Shown here: in pieces, positions 1 to 58,696 of the stretch | How the letters are laid out: each line of letters begins with the position of its first letter | Numbering within the stretch: position 1 is the stretch's first letter | Source: Fimbriimonadales bacterium | GTDB taxonomy: Bacteria; Armatimonadota; Fimbriimonadia; Fimbriimonadales; ATM1 | Direction of reading: 5' to 3' | Assembly (NCBI GenBank): GCA_026129745.1 | Contig: JAHCHL010000004.1 | Coordinates: forward strand, 1-64,000 | DNA length: 64,000 bases | Translations under genes and position numbers: made by a program | The notes under the pieces: model-generated | The model's input: the letters and a program-made list of their open reading frames with translations, nothing else | Databases searched by the model: none | Told to the model about the DNA's origin: nothing

Positions 1-287
1 AGATAGAAAAACATAGGGTAGATCATGCCACCCGCCGGCGTAGGTGGCCGGGTTGCTGCGGGGGGGGGTGCGCCTGATGGGGGACTGGTCGATGTCGATG
101 ACCTTGTCGATGCTCTCGTGGCCTTCGATGCTGTCGTGCGCGGCCCAGGTGGTTCGGGTGCCGTAGACTTCGACCATGAGGCGTGGGAAGAGGGTTTCCT
201 TGACGAGGGTGGATTTGCCGCTGCCCGTCACCCAGGGGAATGGAGGCGTCTATGGAATGGAGGTTGGAGGAACTCGCGTTGGCTCTA
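1..287 (-). pseudogene. uvrA: uvrA fragment (excinuclease ABC subunit A), frame-disrupted, cut by window edge
   Basis: Reading the minus strand, positions about 235-1 encode [14 protein letters not shown], then [15 protein letters not shown] and SNPATYAGG. This matches the second Walker A region of UvrA and the following [17 protein letters not shown] block. Just upstream, in a different frame, [13 protein letters not shown] resembles the UvrA strand that precedes Walker A. The two parts do not join: a TAG lies in frame just 5' of the Walker A part and several residues of the usual IPLGxxxxVTGVSGSGK are missing. The RTP-RSNP junction carries an extra proline codon within a nine-G run (60-68). 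No start codon is present. Base composition is clearly richer in G+C than the neighbouring genes. It may be a remnant, a transferred fragment or a chimeric contig end. The homology is secure; the status is not. Confidence 0.72.
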
Positions 288-842
288 CTAGTTTCCAGAA
301 GCGCGATTACGAAGCAAGTAACGCCCAACGACCCATGCAACAAAAACGCCGCAGAGTGCGCCGGCTATCCAGCCCAGCATCACCTGCGACGGAAAGTGTG
401 CGCCAACGTAAACGCGCGACAAACCGGTGAGGAATGCGACGAGCGCCCACGGAAGACCCCACTTCCATCCGAGTTGAAACCAGAAGACAACCGCGACAGC
501 AGCCATGTTCGCCGAGTGCGCGCTGAATGTGCCGGAACTGGCGAGCAGATTGCCAAGTACGCGCACGTCATCGAGAATTGCAGCAGGGCGCGGCGCAAAG
601 TGGAGCCACTTCGCAAGATCGCAGATTTCGTTGGCCAGAACAACCGCAACGATCGAAGCAAGAACTGTGATGCGCGTCGAGCTTCGATAGAACAACAAGA
701 AAAGTCCAAGCGCGGCAAGCGCAATTCGCAAGAACCAGCCTTTGATGCCGAGGCTGAAAAACCAAAAGACCGGATCGAGCGCCGGCGATGCCCAGCCGCC
801 ATTGATCCAATGAAACAGAGCAACGTCCCAACCGCCCAGCAT
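288..842 (-). CDS. PAP2-family membrane phosphatase (undecaprenyl-diphosphatase-like)
   Basis: A 184-aa polytopic membrane protein with the three PAP2 signature regions: K-x6-RP (KWLHFAPRP), a serine-histidine motif (SAHSAN), and SRVYVGAHFPSQ, the SR-x5-H motif. The family dephosphorylates lipid pyrophosphates or phosphatidate at the outer face of the inner membrane, for example recycling undecaprenyl pyrophosphate for peptidoglycan synthesis. The last motif normally ends H-x3-D; here that position is Q, and PSGH is altered to FSAH, so activity may differ. The gene follows the histidine kinase gene by 5 bp on the same strand and was probably co-transcribed with it. Substrate is not predictable from sequence. 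Confidence 0.85.
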   Translation of the reverse strand: MLGGWDVALFHWINGGWASPALDPVFWFFSLGIKGWFLRIALAALGLFLLFYRSSTRITVLASIVAVVLANEICDLAKWLHFAPRPAAILDDVRVLGNLLASSGTFSAHSANMAAVAVVFWFQLGWKWGLPWALVAFLTGLSRVYVGAHFPSQVMLGWIAGALCGVFVAWVVGRYLLRNRASGN

Positions 843-2116: not shown

Positions 2117-2134
2117 GCGGGGATTCTGGCACTA
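2083..2134. repeat. 52-bp palindromic interspersed repeat, copy 1
   Basis: This copy matches 5776-5827 at 47 of 52 positions in the same orientation. The core forms a hairpin with arms GTGC/GCAC; the loop differs between copies (TTGA versus CTTA) while the arms are kept. On the minus strand it starts with TAGTGCCAGAATCCCC, so the TAG is the stop codon of the upstream 701-aa gene, and the GTG in the hairpin is the start of the histidine kinase. Confidence 0.8.
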
Positions 2135-4237
2135 TCGCTCGATTTGTCTGCGTATTTCGCTTGGCAAATCGGCGTACCTAAAGGGCCCACTTTGCACGAC
2201 GAATGCTCCCTCATAGACTATTTTCCATTCGACTCCAGGTCTAACCTCGATCACAAAAGTTGTCCGAGCCTGCGAACCAACAAAATACTCTCCCGTCAAT
2301 ACAACTGACGGGTGAGTCACGTCGCCGTAGGACGCGAAAGCAATTTGAAGTTCTTGGCGCACGTATTCAAGCGTGCGAGGCACGGACAGGAACCCATCGA
2401 GCGACTCGTATCGTATTGGGCGATTACTGACCAACGCCGTTTCATTCGCCGTGCGCGCCAGCAGTGCGGAGTCACTGTCGAATCCATTGGGCAACGCTTC
2501 CGACCCGGTAAGAAGAATATCAGGTATCTGAGCTTGGCTCCACTCACGGCTTCGTTCACATGCGCGAGCATGAAGCCCAATCAGATTGGCGGCGAAATCC
2601 TGTTGCTCGGGGCGCATCGCAGCAATGCGAAGCGGTTCACCGCGCTCAACAACCATCTGCCATTGCACGTCGTCGAGCGACCCTAACAGATAATAAGCCG
2701 AGCGAGGGTATGCACCGATGTTGCTTAGAGCGGTATGACCATTAGTTAGAGCCACAAAAACCGCGTAAGTCTCAGCTACCGAACTTATAAAAGCGCTTTG
2801 GCGTGCCTTGTAACAAAAAACTGAATAGTTCCGAAGGTGAGTCTCTTTCTCTACTAACGCTATCTGAACGAATTGCTTGAGTGCAGGACGTGGAACCCGA
2901 GCCATTTCGGCTCGAATGGCATTTTTCGGTCTGATCAGCAGCCAACCGTTCTCCAAAGAGATTTGATGGTCTTTGCTCAATAGGTTTGTAAAAGCAAGGA
3001 GGAGAATCTCCCCATTTCGAATTACTGCGAACATATCATCGTTCAACTCATCGCTAACGCATGCTGCCAAGTTGACACCAAGTTCCTTGGCAAGACCCAA
3101 AAGTGCATCCGTCACCGAGTAAGACAGCGGATCGTATTTTTCGGGATCAGACATAGCTTTACGTAACAATTCGCTGGGATTCGCAAAGTTGGAGAGCAGC
3201 GTTTGCCATTTTCCCAAACGACCTAGTGGCAACAGTTGATTGAATTCAGCCGACAATGAAGAAAGCGGGGCGGTTGCTGAGGCTTGCAAACTCAATGGAC
3301 TATCATCAACGGAGGGTTGATCCAACGGTATCGTAACCCCTGCAACCGAGATGATTTCTCCAGAGGGAGCATAGACCGCCAGCTCACAAACCAGGCTCTC
3401 CGTCACTTTAAGAAAGAGGTTGATTTTATCAATGCCGAATGACGCTCTCTTGGCTTCCGAAAGAAGTCGAACAGCCCATGGACGCACCTCCTCATCGCTG
3501 TAAAGCTCCGAAGGAAATGATTCGATGAGAGTTCGCTGTGATTTCAAATAGCTATCGAGGAGTGGCTGTCGCTCTAGTTCCAACTTTCGTTGCGATCGCG
3601 TTGGACTAGATGAGTAGACGACCGTTCGTCCATACGGCAGCTGTGATAGCTCATCAGGCCCTACCTCTAGTAGGAGGCGGCCCAACAGTACCCTCGCTGC
3701 GGAAGTGATTTGTGGATTGAAGCTGGCTGAGGGGCTGTAGGATGGATTTCGCAGATCAATCCCAAGCTGGCGCAGCGATGCAATTGTCGCATGAGCAGTC
3801 GCTTCAGCATCGGAATGTTTCCCGATGAACTCGCGTTCACATTCAAGAGACTTTGAGATCACGGAGCGAATCTGGCGTTTATCCGCTTCCTCCAGTTCCT
3901 TCTGGCGGTCAGACGGCCGCACAATACGTTCATCGCTTGCTTGCCAATCAGAGTTAAGGATGTATGCAATGTTGCTTAACAGTTCGTTGGCGGGAGCACT
4001 CGAGCACTTGACGACGATCACTTCGTTTCCAAGGCGACCAGGGCAACGAGCCTTTATGCCAACACCTGATTCAAGTTCTGAGAGGAAAGTAGTCACGGTC
4101 GAGGCGCGAGTCTCTACCGTGACTGTTGCGGGGGGCTGTGCCAAAGCAGACCCACAGATGCCGAATGCAGCCATCGCTGGCCACAAGTTCCATTGCCGTA
4201 TCGCAAGCAACGGCGAAGTTCGCTGTGGTCGAATCAC
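2132..4237 (-). CDS. Secreted protein of unknown function with possible STN-like N-terminal domain
   Basis: 701 aa with a signal peptide ending near SALAQP (about residue 34). The next segment, TVTVETRASTVTTFLSELE followed by GVGIKARCPG and ELLSNIAYILNSDW, has the strand-helix pattern of the STN domain found at the N termini of secretins and TonB receptors; this is weak similarity. The rest is a long soluble mixed alpha/beta chain with no motif I recognise. Its stop codon lies in the 52-bp repeat, 15 bp before the histidine kinase start, which suggests co-transcription with a sensor kinase. Function unknown. Confidence 0.8.
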   Translation of the reverse strand: MIRPQRTSPLLAIRQWNLWPAMAAFGICGSALAQPPATVTVETRASTVTTFLSELESGVGIKARCPGRLGNEVIVVKCSSAPANELLSNIAYILNSDWQASDERIVRPSDRQKELEEADKRQIRSVISKSLECEREFIGKHSDAEATAHATIASLRQLGIDLRNPSYSPSASFNPQITSAARVLLGRLLLEVGPDELSQLPYGRTVVYSSSPTRSQRKLELERQPLLDSYLKSQRTLIESFPSELYSDEEVRPWAVRLLSEAKRASFGIDKINLFLKVTESLVCELAVYAPSGEIISVAGVTIPLDQPSVDDSPLSLQASATAPLSSLSAEFNQLLPLGRLGKWQTLLSNFANPSELLRKAMSDPEKYDPLSYSVTDALLGLAKELGVNLAACVSDELNDDMFAVIRNGEILLLAFTNLLSKDHQISLENGWLLIRPKNAIRAEMARVPRPALKQFVQIALVEKETHLRNYSVFCYKARQSAFISSVAETYAVFVALTNGHTALSNIGAYPRSAYYLLGSLDDVQWQMVVERGEPLRIAAMRPEQQDFAANLIGLHARACERSREWSQAQIPDILLTGSEALPNGFDSDSALLARTANETALVSNRPIRYESLDGFLSVPRTLEYVRQELQIAFASYGDVTHPSVVLTGEYFVGSQARTTFVIEVRPGVEWKIVYEGAFVVQSGPFRYADLPSEIRRQIER

Positions 4238-4515: not shown

Positions 4516-5669
4516 TTACTTCTGTTTTTTTATTGATTGGCGAGAGTGCGAGCTTGAAGAAGGAAGAGTGCCCTGTGGGTTCCGATCCCGCTTAAGCTCG
4601 ACTTCCAGAGTTTCGGGCGACACAACGTCACGCTTGCTATCACCTGGATAAACCAAGATAATCATCGGCGTGCCCGGCAAGTCGAGCTGACGGGCGACGG
4701 CCAAGTCACGTGTCAATCTAGACTCAGCCATTGCGACGCCACCTTTTCGGTGCCTGGCTCGTTCGTCGTTATTGGATCGAACTTCTGAAAGGATGCTTTG
4801 GTAGCCAGCCAACTCTCTCGGTCGCTCAACCGCGCATCGGCCGAGAAACTTCCAAAATGAGTCGTCGTCGAGCGTCTCAATGAGCCGAGCCACCAGTGCA
4901 GAAGGGGAGTCGTTGCGAAGAGGAAAGTGACGATAGACGAGCCTGAGGTTCTCGTAAGTTTGGCACAGGCTCATCAATTGCGGAACCGCCTGGTGGCAGG
5001 CCCCGCAACCGAGGTCGGAGAAAACGATCGCCGTAAATTCCGCGTTCGCAGAGCCCAACGTCCGGCTATCCTGCGGCGCGAGGTCCGAGAAACTGATTTT
5101 CGCAAGCGCTTCACGATCCAGATCTAGCACGGTCTCTTGTGGCAACAATATGCCCTGTACTATCGAGCCCGAAACCGCTATTGTGGCAATCGAGGACATA
5201 AAGACAACGGCTTTCTTGGGCTCCTGGGGGGGGGGGGCGAGTTTTCCAGGCGTGCCTGAATCGTATGGCAAAGGAAAATCAAGCAGAACAAGACTCCCGA
5301 TGCCAAGCACCAGCTACAGAGTAGTTTGAGATCGACGACAGCGAAACCTGTCAACCACAGACTTACAAACGTCCCAACCGCTGAGAACCCGTACCCCGCA
5401 ATGAACAGCAGTCGGCGAGGCGCCCCCGGACCTTTGGTAGATCTAACTCCGATGATCAGAGCCAAGGTTACGAAAGCCGCCAGGCCGAAGACCGCGACGG
5501 GTACCCCAAACCATTTCGCACTTGGGTGATAGGCGAGTTCATTGCAGCCCGACCCAACGCCGCAAGGAACAATCGCCCGCCGAACGTGGGCAAACGAAAG
5601 CACTCCCGCCACGTAGACTCCCGTCGCTGCGAGCAAGAACTGATGCCGATCGTTAACCAAGTTCGCCAA
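4516..5669 (-). CDS. VKOR-DsbA fusion (disulfide bond oxidase), frame interrupted at a G12 tract
   Basis: Two overlapping frames together encode one protein of about 384 aa. The first part (TTG start, 5669) is a VKOR membrane domain with loop cysteines (PCGVGSGC), a Ser and FGVPVA motif, four or so helices, and the quinone-proximal CSWC motif. The second part is a DsbA/thioredoxin-like domain with CGAC in DLGCGACHQ and a cis-proline region LPGTPMI. The VKOR frame leaves the DsbA frame inside a 12-nt C tract (plus strand G, 5226-5237); 13 or 10 residues in the tract would fuse them. VKOR passes electrons to quinone and reoxidises the periplasmic thioredoxin domain. As written, the VKOR part ends 16 codons past the tract, and the DsbA part could only start internally. 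Downstream is a Cys-rich peptide gene. Confidence 0.85.
5226..5237. repeat. G12 homopolymer at the VKOR/DsbA frame switch
   Basis: Twelve consecutive G on the plus strand. In the minus-strand gene this is four proline codons in the linker between the VKOR and DsbA domains. A length of 13 (or 10) joins both domains in one frame; 12 does not. Confidence 0.9.
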
Positions 5670-15844: not shown

Positions 15845-16290
15845 ATGGGCGGTATGGGTGGCCGATTGACGACTGGCTTAATCTTGATTACTGCCGTGGG
15901 ATGCTCTCAGCGCGAGGTGAGGTTGCGGCTCATTGAAGCTTCGACAGGAGCCCATACCCCCCCCCGTGGATCGGAGCAAGCAAGGCACGCACCCTCTTAA
16001 GGCTGTGTGGTTGCGGATCGTGCCACAAGCTTGTAACACGGCTCAGCGATTCGGAACGGCGAAAGATTGACTTTGTCACTATTAGGGGGTACACCGAGAT
16101 GGCCGTCGACCTTCAAAAGACCTTCGATTGGGACGCTGTCCGCTTTGCTGAATACAACCAGGCAGACTGGGACAAATTCTACGGCTCATCAGAGTGTCCA
16201 CGATTCGGACTTGTTAAGAATGGCCGCTTCGCTGAACAAGCGTTTGCCACCGAAGCAGATGGCGAACTGACTCCGGGAGGAGGAAAGTGA
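15845..16290 (+). CDS. Thioredoxin-like lipoprotein, frame interrupted at a C9 tract
   Basis: ATG at 15845 opens a frame with a signal peptide and lipobox-like TAVGC (Cys20), which reaches the run of nine C (15957-15965) and then stops after ~15 more codons. One added C (or loss of two) continues into a frame encoding PWIGASKARTLLRLCGC, then GSCHKLVTRLSDSERRKIDF and on to the stop at 16290, giving about 148 aa. CGCGSCHK and a later SSECPRFGLVKNG strand look like a thioredoxin-fold reductant domain. The stop overlaps the next GTG start. The intact protein is thus a predicted membrane-tethered thiol protein. As with the VKOR-DsbA gene, the break lies in poly-C. Confidence 0.65.
15957..15965. 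repeat. C9 homopolymer at a frame break
   Basis: Nine C inside the thioredoxin-like lipoprotein gene. Ten C (or seven) would restore one open frame from 15845 to 16290. Confidence 0.85.
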
Positions 16291-16808
16291 TACGACTTGT
16301 GACTCTGACGGCCGGCCTTTTCCTACTCGTGTGCCTTTTCGCTGTGTCGCAAGATCTTCAGTCGCTTGCGCGTTCAATTGTGGTACCCAATCTGAATTCC
16401 ACAGCGAAACAGTACTTCAGTGAACACCTGAAGAAAGATCCGGCAATAGGAAGCCGCAACTTTGTCCGCACTCCGCTATCGAGAACAAACCATCTCATCG
16501 TTCTTGTGGGCAACTGCGAAGAGTGTGCCGACAAGATGATTTTGAGGATTGCTGAGGTGTCGTTAAGTGCCGGGGTACCAGCTTTCTATGTCTCGAAGGT
16601 CAATCCGACAGGCGCTTTACTAACTGTTATGGACAAGCCAATCTCCTCGAGCGTTGTCATCGATGCGGACGGATCCGTTCACGAGAGACTGAACGGATTC
16701 TTTACTCCTCGCGTTTTTCTTATCGATGCTGATGGGCGCATTTCATGGAAGCAAGATTCACCCGAACTGGCCTCGTTAGCTAATCGCCTGAAGGAGTTCC
16801 ACTCATGA
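16287..16808 (+). CDS. Exported thioredoxin-fold protein with CEEC motif
   Basis: 173 aa, GTG start overlapping the preceding stop (GTGA). A single hydrophobic leader (LVTLTAGLFLLVCLFAVS) anchors or exports it. The mature part has a redox-like strand and motif LIVLVGNCEECADKM, then SSVVIDADGSVHERL and PRVFLIDADGRISWKQ, which follow the TlpA/thioredoxin-like fold. CEEC is an unusual active-site pair. It probably reduces or oxidises thiols in the periplasm. It overlaps the next pseudopilin gene by 4 bp, so expression is coupled. Confidence 0.7.
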   Translation: MIRLVTLTAGLFLLVCLFAVSQDLQSLARSIVVPNLNSTAKQYFSEHLKKDPAIGSRNFVRTPLSRTNHLIVLVGNCEECADKMILRIAEVSLSAGVPAFYVSKVNPTGALLTVMDKPISSSVVIDADGSVHERLNGFFTPRVFLIDADGRISWKQDSPELASLANRLKEFHS

Positions 16809-56430: not shown

Positions 56431-57393
56431 GTGACTAAACAAGAATTGTCCAAACCGTCTGGACGAGACCGAGGCGCCTTTGAAGTGTTGCCGTGCAACC
56501 GTGGGGCGCATGACCTTTCGATGGACTTCGCGCACGGGCATGAACGGTTCGGTGTGATCTCAGGCCCTCACGGCTGTGGAAAGTCGCACTTGCTTCGCGA
56601 GACTGCCGTTGAAGCGCACAAGGAGCTGGGGGCGAGCGTAGGGCTGATCTCCGCCTCTGATGTGACTCGGCCGGGATACGGTTTCTCCAGTCCAGACATT
56701 CTCGTCGTCGACGATCTTGGCGAGGGCGCAGGGTCAGGCAGGTCGAAGAAGAGACTTGAAGTCGAACTGGAACGGCGGGTTCGGTCGGGCAAGCCGACCT
56801 TTTGTGCGGCGACCGTCGCGTTCAAAGCCATATCAAACTTTCTTCCGTTTCCGCGCAAGTGGAAAAAGGCAGAGATCAAAGAGCCGACCGACTCGGAGCG
56901 GGAGGGAATTTTGCGTTCAATTTGCCGCGCCGAAAGACTCGAGCTACCTGAAGAAGTCGTAAAAACGGTCGTCAGATTGATCCCACGCGACGGAAGGGCA
57001 CTGCTCGGCGCGGTCAAGAGGCTCAAATTTGCGTGCAAGAACAAGAGCGAGCCGATTTCACAAATCCGCGCCGCAGGTGTGTTGGACCCATTGATTTCGA
57101 AGGGATCCGGATTCGATCTTCGCGACATCGTGGTCGATTGCGTCAGTCTTTCGCTCGATTCCCAGCTGCGACGCAATGACGACGAGTTCCAGTATCAGCT
57201 CTCGACCTATGTGATGCGCGACGAAGCTTGGCTTGCAGAATCAAGCGTCGCTGAGTACCTGGGATTTACACCAGGTGAGACTTTTCGGATTCTGCGCGAC
57301 GCACGCACTCGTCTCCAATGTAACGACGCAATTTTCAGCCGCAAACTCGATTCGACGATTCGACTCATTTGCAAACGACTCGACGATGTCTAA
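56431..57393 (+). CDS. dnaA: Divergent DnaA-like replication initiator
   Basis: 320 aa without DnaA domains I-II. Residues 17-225 align with DnaA domain III: FEVLPCNRGAHDLS, Walker A GPHGCGKS (45-52; TH replaced by SH), Walker B DILVVDD (89-95), and DGRALLGAVKRLKFACK in place of NIRELEGALNRL. Residues 226-318 match domain IV: QYQLSTYVMRDEAW and SSVAEYLGFTPGETFRILRDARTRL, the helix-turn-helix, with the signature DHTTV altered to GETFR. It starts 3 nt after a short TGA and GTG context; GTG at 56431. Unlike Hda it has the DNA-binding domain. Likely initiator or a DnaA-derived regulator. Overlaps a GGDEF gene by 8 bp. Confidence 0.72.
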   Translation: MTKQELSKPSGRDRGAFEVLPCNRGAHDLSMDFAHGHERFGVISGPHGCGKSHLLRETAVEAHKELGASVGLISASDVTRPGYGFSSPDILVVDDLGEGAGSGRSKKRLEVELERRVRSGKPTFCAATVAFKAISNFLPFPRKWKKAEIKEPTDSEREGILRSICRAERLELPEEVVKTVVRLIPRDGRALLGAVKRLKFACKNKSEPISQIRAAGVLDPLISKGSGFDLRDIVVDCVSLSLDSQLRRNDDEFQYQLSTYVMRDEAWLAESSVAEYLGFTPGETFRILRDARTRLQCNDAIFSRKLDSTIRLICKRLDDV

Positions 57394-58696
57394 GCCTGAA
57401 CCACTGACGCCACGATTTATCGTCCAGGAAGAAAACCTGGCAGATGTAGCGTCGCATCTGGCGAGAACAGAGGATACAGTACGACCTGAGGGCACCCTGC
57501 CGGGAATGAAGCAGGTCAGAGACTTACCCCTCTGGCCCATCTGGGTAAATCCGGAACATTTGGTTCGAACTGCCTTGGTTCTCATGCGAGGCCATGGAGT
57601 GTCGGGCCTGGGCGTAATCGAGGGCAAAGAGTTCGTCGGTGTCTTGTACATCGAGGACTTAGCCGGCGTGGCAGAAGACACGCCGGTGTCCGCTTTCGTC
57701 CGAAAAGACGTTGAGGCAGTATCGCCTGTCGCGACGCTGCGCTGGGTTTCCGAAATGATGGTCGGGCGCAACGTTCCCAGAGTCCCGGTTGTCGACGAAG
57801 GCAAGTTTCTCGGCATTGTCTCGGCTCAAGATCTGCTTAAGGACATCGGCAGGAATTACGATCCCCTCACGCAGCTTCCCTGGAGCGACGCGCTTCGCGA
57901 GTGGGGGCTGCGCCATCTCGAAGCCGGCGATGAAGTCACCATTGTCTTCTTTGACCTCGACGACTTCGGAAGATTCAACAAACAGTACGGCCACCTCGTC
58001 GGCGATCAAGTGTTGCGCCGTGTTGCGGATGCGCTGCGATCGAAAGTCGCGACCGCGACCGACTTGCTTTGCCGATACGGCGGGGATGAGTTCGTAATCG
58101 GAACGTTGCGAGCGCGCGAAGAAAGCGAAGCGCTCGCGCAAGAGATCGTTTCGAGCATCAACGGGTTGGAAGTCGAAGGCGCGGCGATGCCAATTACGAT
58201 TTCACACGGAGTCTTCGGCGGACGGCGAACCAAAGAGCGCCCAGGAACCCACATCGCCGCGACGCTCGACAACCTCATCAATCAAGCGAGCAAAGAGTGC
58301 ATGGCGCGAAAGGCCGCGCGGATTGCCCCCCCCCAGCAAACTGGCGAACCGCTGGATTTCAAATCCGTCGAATTGGTTAGCGCGGTGGCATCGCCGTCGA
58401 ATGGCGGTTTTCGTGGTGTCGTCGTTTTGTCCGCCGGCGAACGGTTGCTCACCGGAGTCGTTCCCATGGCGACGTCGGCGGCGCGCGCTTCTGCGTTCGC
58501 CGTGGCGGCTGCTCTCAACGAGGCCTCATCCGAGCGTTGCCAAGTCCTGGATGTCATCGAATCCGATACCGCCGCGGGGAATGTCATGACCGTCGTCGGC
58601 ATGAAAAGCAATCGCGCCGTCGCCGCCTCACGGCTCGCAACATCAAACCCCGCCGAAGACGCCGCCCGCATCGCGCTCGAAGCGTTTGCAGTTTAA
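57386..58696 (+). CDS. CBS-pair and GGDEF domain protein (diguanylate cyclase-like)
   Basis: 436 aa from the ATG at 57386, overlapping the DnaA-like stop by 8 bp. Two CBS motifs (NPEHLVRTALVLMRGHGVSGL; AVSPVATLRWVSEMMVGRNVP...VSAQDLL) precede a GGDEF domain with DPLTQLPWSDALREW, FFDLDDFGRFNKQYGH and RYGGDEFVIG, so the catalytic loop is intact. A C-terminal ~110-residue domain follows (VELVSAVASPSNGGFRG). Makes c-di-GMP, probably gated by nucleotide binding to CBS. A C9 tract (58326-58334) is in frame. Confidence 0.92.
   Translation: MSKPEPLTPRFIVQEENLADVASHLARTEDTVRPEGTLPGMKQVRDLPLWPIWVNPEHLVRTALVLMRGHGVSGLGVIEGKEFVGVLYIEDLAGVAEDTPVSAFVRKDVEAVSPVATLRWVSEMMVGRNVPRVPVVDEGKFLGIVSAQDLLKDIGRNYDPLTQLPWSDALREWGLRHLEAGDEVTIVFFDLDDFGRFNKQYGHLVGDQVLRRVADALRSKVATATDLLCRYGGDEFVIGTLRAREESEALAQEIVSSINGLEVEGAAMPITISHGVFGGRRTKERPGTHIAATLDNLINQASKECMARKAARIAPPQQTGEPLDFKSVELVSAVASPSNGGFRGVVVLSAGERLLTGVVPMATSAARASAFAVAAALNEASSERCQVLDVIESDTAAGNVMTVVGMKSNRAVAASRLATSNPAEDAARIALEAFAV

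Follow-up and report, generated by a model that had tools for sequence, protein, structure and literature searches.

Organization of the Locus

Two open reading frames on the minus strand of the 64,000-nt window (the whole stretch of DNA that was analysed), from an uncultured member of the Armatimonadota, encode the two parts of a VKOR-DsbA disulfide oxidase. The VKOR half, a four-TM oxidase domain, occupies 5178-5669 with a TTG start at 5669, and the frame encoding the DsbA half occupies 4516-5310. The two are in different frames and overlap across a homopolymer of 12 G on the plus strand (5226-5237), which is C12 on the coding strand and forms the frame junction in the loop between TM4 and TM5. 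Codon starts fall at positions 2 mod 3 in the VKOR frame and 0 mod 3 in the DsbA frame. At the tract the VKOR frame reads ...ARLENSPPPP, continues out of register as RSPRKPLSLCPRLPQ and stops at 5178, and the other frame reads ...PPPQEPKKAVVFMSSIATIAVSGSIVQGILLPQ... onward into a segment (4516-5225) that comprises a TM5 linker and the DsbA-like thioredoxin half and is open up to its stop. The start listed for the DsbA frame, a GTG at 5310, sits inside the overlap with VKOR and is not likely to be the real gene start of this half; the part of the frame that matches homologues starts at the tract. An ATG at 5197-5199, just ahead of the TM5 hydrophobic stretch, was noticed on reading the sequence as a possible internal start for a membrane-anchored DsbA, and no ribosome-binding site was seen at normal spacing from it.

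The VKOR half matches Pfam VKOR (PF07884, 2.9e-14) and the DsbA half matches Thioredoxin_4 (PF13462, 1.1e-6) and DSBA (PF01323, 1.1e-5). Alignment with homologues determined that the catalytic residues are kept in both: the VKOR active-site CSWC (5307-5318) and loop cysteines C36 (5562-5564) and C42 (5544-5546), which align with conserved cysteines, and the DsbA active-site CGAC (4996-5007) with the cis-proline motif TP downstream. Apart from the break at the tract, no second stop or frameshift was found in ~380 codons. Codon use is coding-like in both halves according to a codon model in which one training gene (57300-58696) had been entered out of frame; the result for that gene is void, and the other scores should be little affected. 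A PDB sequence search with the VKOR half gave no match, and a search with the closest orthologue, described below, gave relatives of the DsbA/thioredoxin type only.

Fusions of VKOR with a thioredoxin or DsbA domain are known in bacteria, the cyanobacterial VKOR homologue being an example. The protein of the window resembles them in its four-TM core with a CxxC and paired loop cysteines, in TM5, and in a C-terminal exported thioredoxin-fold domain with a CxxC and cis-proline. Unlike these fusions, in which both domains lie in one open reading frame, its frame is broken at the C12 run between TM4 and TM5, and it is a second, divergent copy in a genome that also has an intact one (G000:C18, 380 aa). 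The preliminary description had reported a split fusion with both domains complete, and had placed the frame change exactly in the 12-nt homopolymer such that 13 or 10 nt would fuse the halves. The first point is borne out by the Pfam matches, the intact motifs and a fused orthologue, and the second by the open reading frames and frame arithmetic.

Next to the split gene, at 2132-4237 on the minus strand, is a gene for a predicted exported protein of 701 aa with no Pfam match.

Homologues and Origin of the Tract

VKOR matches were found in 58 of the 61 genomes of the order (60 relatives and the window's own), nearly all of them in open frames of fusion length and none with an internal stop. 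The 20 homologues that were read in detail are all fused and contain no G/C run longer than 6 nt. The closest copy is that of Armatimonadetes bacterium J051 (G002), a member of the same family, where an intact 411-aa fusion lies on a 6,290-base contig that is apparently RFHN01000137.1. The fusion is followed there by a homologue of the 701-aa neighbour (L023 1944-4052), and since the same gene stands beside both copies we consider them to occupy the same locus. A role for the neighbour protein as a dedicated disulfide substrate was considered and is not claimed, as its N-terminal cysteine pair is, on reading, not in the J051 protein.

In a tree with the 20 homologues the window protein pairs with the J051 orthologue (support 100/100), and the same pairing was obtained when the halves were analysed separately (96/91 for VKOR, 100/100 for DsbA). 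Since each half has this one fused orthologue as its partner in the tree, the two belong to one gene, and this grouping, together with the shared neighbour gene, rules out a pair of adjacent genes that were never fused. The branch of the DsbA half is 1.22 compared with 0.80 for J051, and that of the VKOR half is 0.64 compared with 1.51, which may weakly suggest that constraint is relaxed on the downstream side of the tract.

The J051 gene has no tract in its linker, and its longest G/C run is 5 nt. As the closest orthologue is fused, has the same neighbour and is without the tract, the tract is recent and the halves descend from one gene; judged from these comparisons, it is a new feature of a once-fused gene. 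The preliminary description had held that an intact gene without the tract in a related strain would refute a switch. An intact, tract-free relative does exist, but it is of another genus, with 35% identity over the aligned protein, so it marks the tract as derived and does not refute switching. J051 provided the only orthologue that was found; scans of genome contigs for near relatives returned only J051 and one more distant MAG, and no viral contig scanned matched the tract with its flanks.

Long G/C Runs in the Genome

The 2.62-Mb genome contains 64 G/C runs of at least 8 nt: 53 of 8 nt, 8 of 9 nt, 2 of 10 nt and 1 of 12 nt. The window tract is thus the only run longer than 10 nt. Extrapolating the 8-10-nt runs with a geometric tail gives an expectation of 0.03-0.04 for runs of at least 12 nt, and no G12 appeared in dinucleotide shuffles of the window. 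Eight runs of at least 8 nt fall within the window (1-64000), against ~1.6 expected at the genome rate. A similar-looking clustering of G/C runs was noted on contig 16 between 36 and 100 kb.

A second gene is broken at a long run. This gene encodes a PEP-CTERM protein and is interrupted at a G10 run (G000:C16:36687-36696; L024 988-997), with the signal peptide and ~40 residues in one frame and the other 327 codons in another. A paralogue on contig 14 carries G9 at the same site (L027 975-983) and is in frame throughout, and a homologue from the same family (G005) has no run at that site. A third PEP-CTERM copy is cut short by the end of contig 16, at whose edge it lies (L160 3-644).

Both intragenic runs of at least 10 nt (2/2) therefore coincide with a frame break, compared with none of 43 runs of 8-9 nt (P ~0.001), the 43 being those for which the flanks on either side scored as coding and shared a frame; no score could be assigned to the others. 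One G9 run at a contig edge shows a shift in the codon model scores and was judged by inspection to lie in one-frame UvrA-like sequence; when it is counted as a break, P is ~0.003. The tracts of the two broken genes themselves fell under the threshold of the codon scorer, and these breaks rest on open reading frames and homology. The third run of at least 10 nt, a G10, is extragenic and adjoins a CRISPR array. At this locus (L025; G000:C18:77100-79200) the array lies beside a Cas2-like open reading frame and the G10 run follows immediately after the array.

A Candidate On/Off Switch

Our preferred explanation, which we hold tentatively and give a little less than an even chance, is that a real VKOR-DsbA gene has been made hypermutable by a new poly-C tract, that the lineage flips between ON and OFF, and that the assembled copy is OFF. 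The gene would encode one membrane protein, a VKOR-DsbA fusion that introduces disulfide bonds into exported proteins, and the poly-C tract would have arisen recently in the proline-coding cytoplasmic loop that connects the oxidase core to the TM5-DsbA arm. Changes in tract length would come from slipped-strand mispairing during replication. At in-frame lengths the fusion would be made, and since the TM4-TM5 loop can accept extra prolines the enzyme should work; at out-of-frame lengths, of which the assembled sequence would be one, the product would end in a short nonsense tail after the VKOR core and would lack TM5 and the DsbA arm. The basic function may be supplied by the intact paralogue on contig 18.

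Poly-G/C tracts of at least 8 nt vary in Campylobacter according to the PhasomeIt survey (PMC6321876), and pldA of H. pylori is toggled by an intragenic tract (PMC5469174). The locus described here is like the poly-G/C contingency loci of Campylobacter, Neisseria and Helicobacter in carrying within the gene a G/C tract in the length range for which variation is known (12 nt, against a lower limit of 8 nt) and in that a one-base change toggles the frame, 12 being out of frame and 13 in frame. The second target in this genome is a predicted exported protein, as in those systems. It is unlike them in that there are only two candidates, each known from one assembled sequence, and in that the target is a disulfide oxidase and not a surface antigen. 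The tract-bearing loci amount to two broken genes (G12 and G10) and one in-frame paralogue (G9). The VKOR-DsbA gene looks like a poly-G/C contingency locus and is placed as a candidate, not a member. The slippage switch put forward in the preliminary description fits the tract length, the intact orthologue without a tract, and the second gene broken at G10 with its in-frame G9 paralogue; switching itself, with slippage in vivo, its reversibility and any benefit, is what we infer from this pattern.

Several observations argue against a switch. Species known to be phase-variable have many contingency loci, beside which two candidate genes in a genome would be few, and the tract does not appear to be conserved, the J051 orthologue being without it. 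Frame breaks that rise with run length are also expected from sequencing or assembly error. MutS, MutS2 and MutL are present in the genome with open reading frames; mismatch repair being intact, slippage would be lowered, which counts against switching, and any switching would proceed at the lower rate of repair-proficient cells. The same three genes rule out loss of mismatch repair as the cause of the break.

The broader proposal, that a disulfide-forming enzyme and a PEP-CTERM exported protein are switched in this genome by genuine poly-G contingency loci and that these are the first of their kind in Armatimonadota, is doubtful. A literature search joining Armatimonadota with phase variation found no paper, which is not proof of absence. 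If the hypermutable-gene explanation is true, the known range of on/off switching driven by slippage would grow to include an environmental bacterial phylum and an enzyme of protein folding, and toggling an enzyme of oxidative folding would change the folding of many exported proteins together.

Alternative Explanations

The main rival, a serious but lesser possibility, is an error of sequencing or assembly: the tract would be real, its true consensus length in frame, and the gene simply an intact fusion. The pattern in which both intragenic runs of at least 10 nt are off frame and the shorter ones are not is what miscounted homopolymers would produce. The assembly is a draft in 20 contigs, and all homologues are fused. 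Against this, the 43 runs of 8-9 nt read in frame, so the assembly is not generally noisy at homopolymers, a comparison that says little on runs of 10-12 nt. A miscounted tract would, moreover, remain long enough for hypermutability. If the consensus is in error, the locus would still hold a hypermutable site in a disulfide oxidase gene, and would show that genes called across long homopolymers in draft assemblies should be treated with care.

It is unlikely that the gene is a recent pseudogene, that is, a dispensable second copy put out of frame at a slippery site, now in early decay and with switching unused. The intact paralogue on contig 18 and the longer branch of the DsbA half are consistent with decay, as are the codon scores of both halves, which rank low among those of the window; the conserved neighbour gene, however, has an even lower score. 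Decay is harder to reconcile with an otherwise uninterrupted reading frame in which all catalytic residues are kept, and with a break that sits at the one site able to revert easily.

More improbable still is that the break is tolerated by decoding. Some fusion might be produced through RNA polymerase slippage or through a -1 shift of the ribosome at the C run; alternatively, translation might start at the ATG at 5197-5199 and yield a separate DsbA arm anchored in the membrane by TM5, so that the two products would resemble a DsbB/DsbA pair. Slippage at a C12 run is possible in principle, an ATG lies ahead of the TM5 stretch, and two reviews treat frameshifting and transcriptional slippage at homopolymers in other bacteria (PMC5009743, PMC3017870). 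No conserved frameshift signal accompanies the tract, however, which is absent from the orthologue and from all homologues read, and the internal ATG is without a ribosome-binding site at normal distance. A conserved programmed frameshift is ruled out, as the tract is lacking in all 20 homologues.

Long Runs in Relatives and Other Observations

Long G runs occur in 35 of the 61 genomes. Most of those inspected fall between genes, ahead of genes or at the ends of contigs, and with such positions they show no contingency system for the order.

Some further features were noted in passing. At the start of the window's contig, a UvrA-like C-terminal fragment (26-364, minus strand) abuts a PAP2-family gene and may represent either a truncated gene or the edge of the assembly. 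The MutS2 of one relative (G047:C1:2247645-2248186) matches as two pieces in different frames and is perhaps a frameshifted gene. In another relative (G006:C13; L159 1539-1550) a G12 run lies at the head of a thioredoxin-like open reading frame, related to that at 16287-16808 of the window, near a pilin-like gene and the contig end. In two relatives the gene of a predicted secreted protein is preceded, a short distance before its start, by a long G/C run (L057 1501-1512 and L058 1501-1515), an arrangement found in promoter-type contingency loci.
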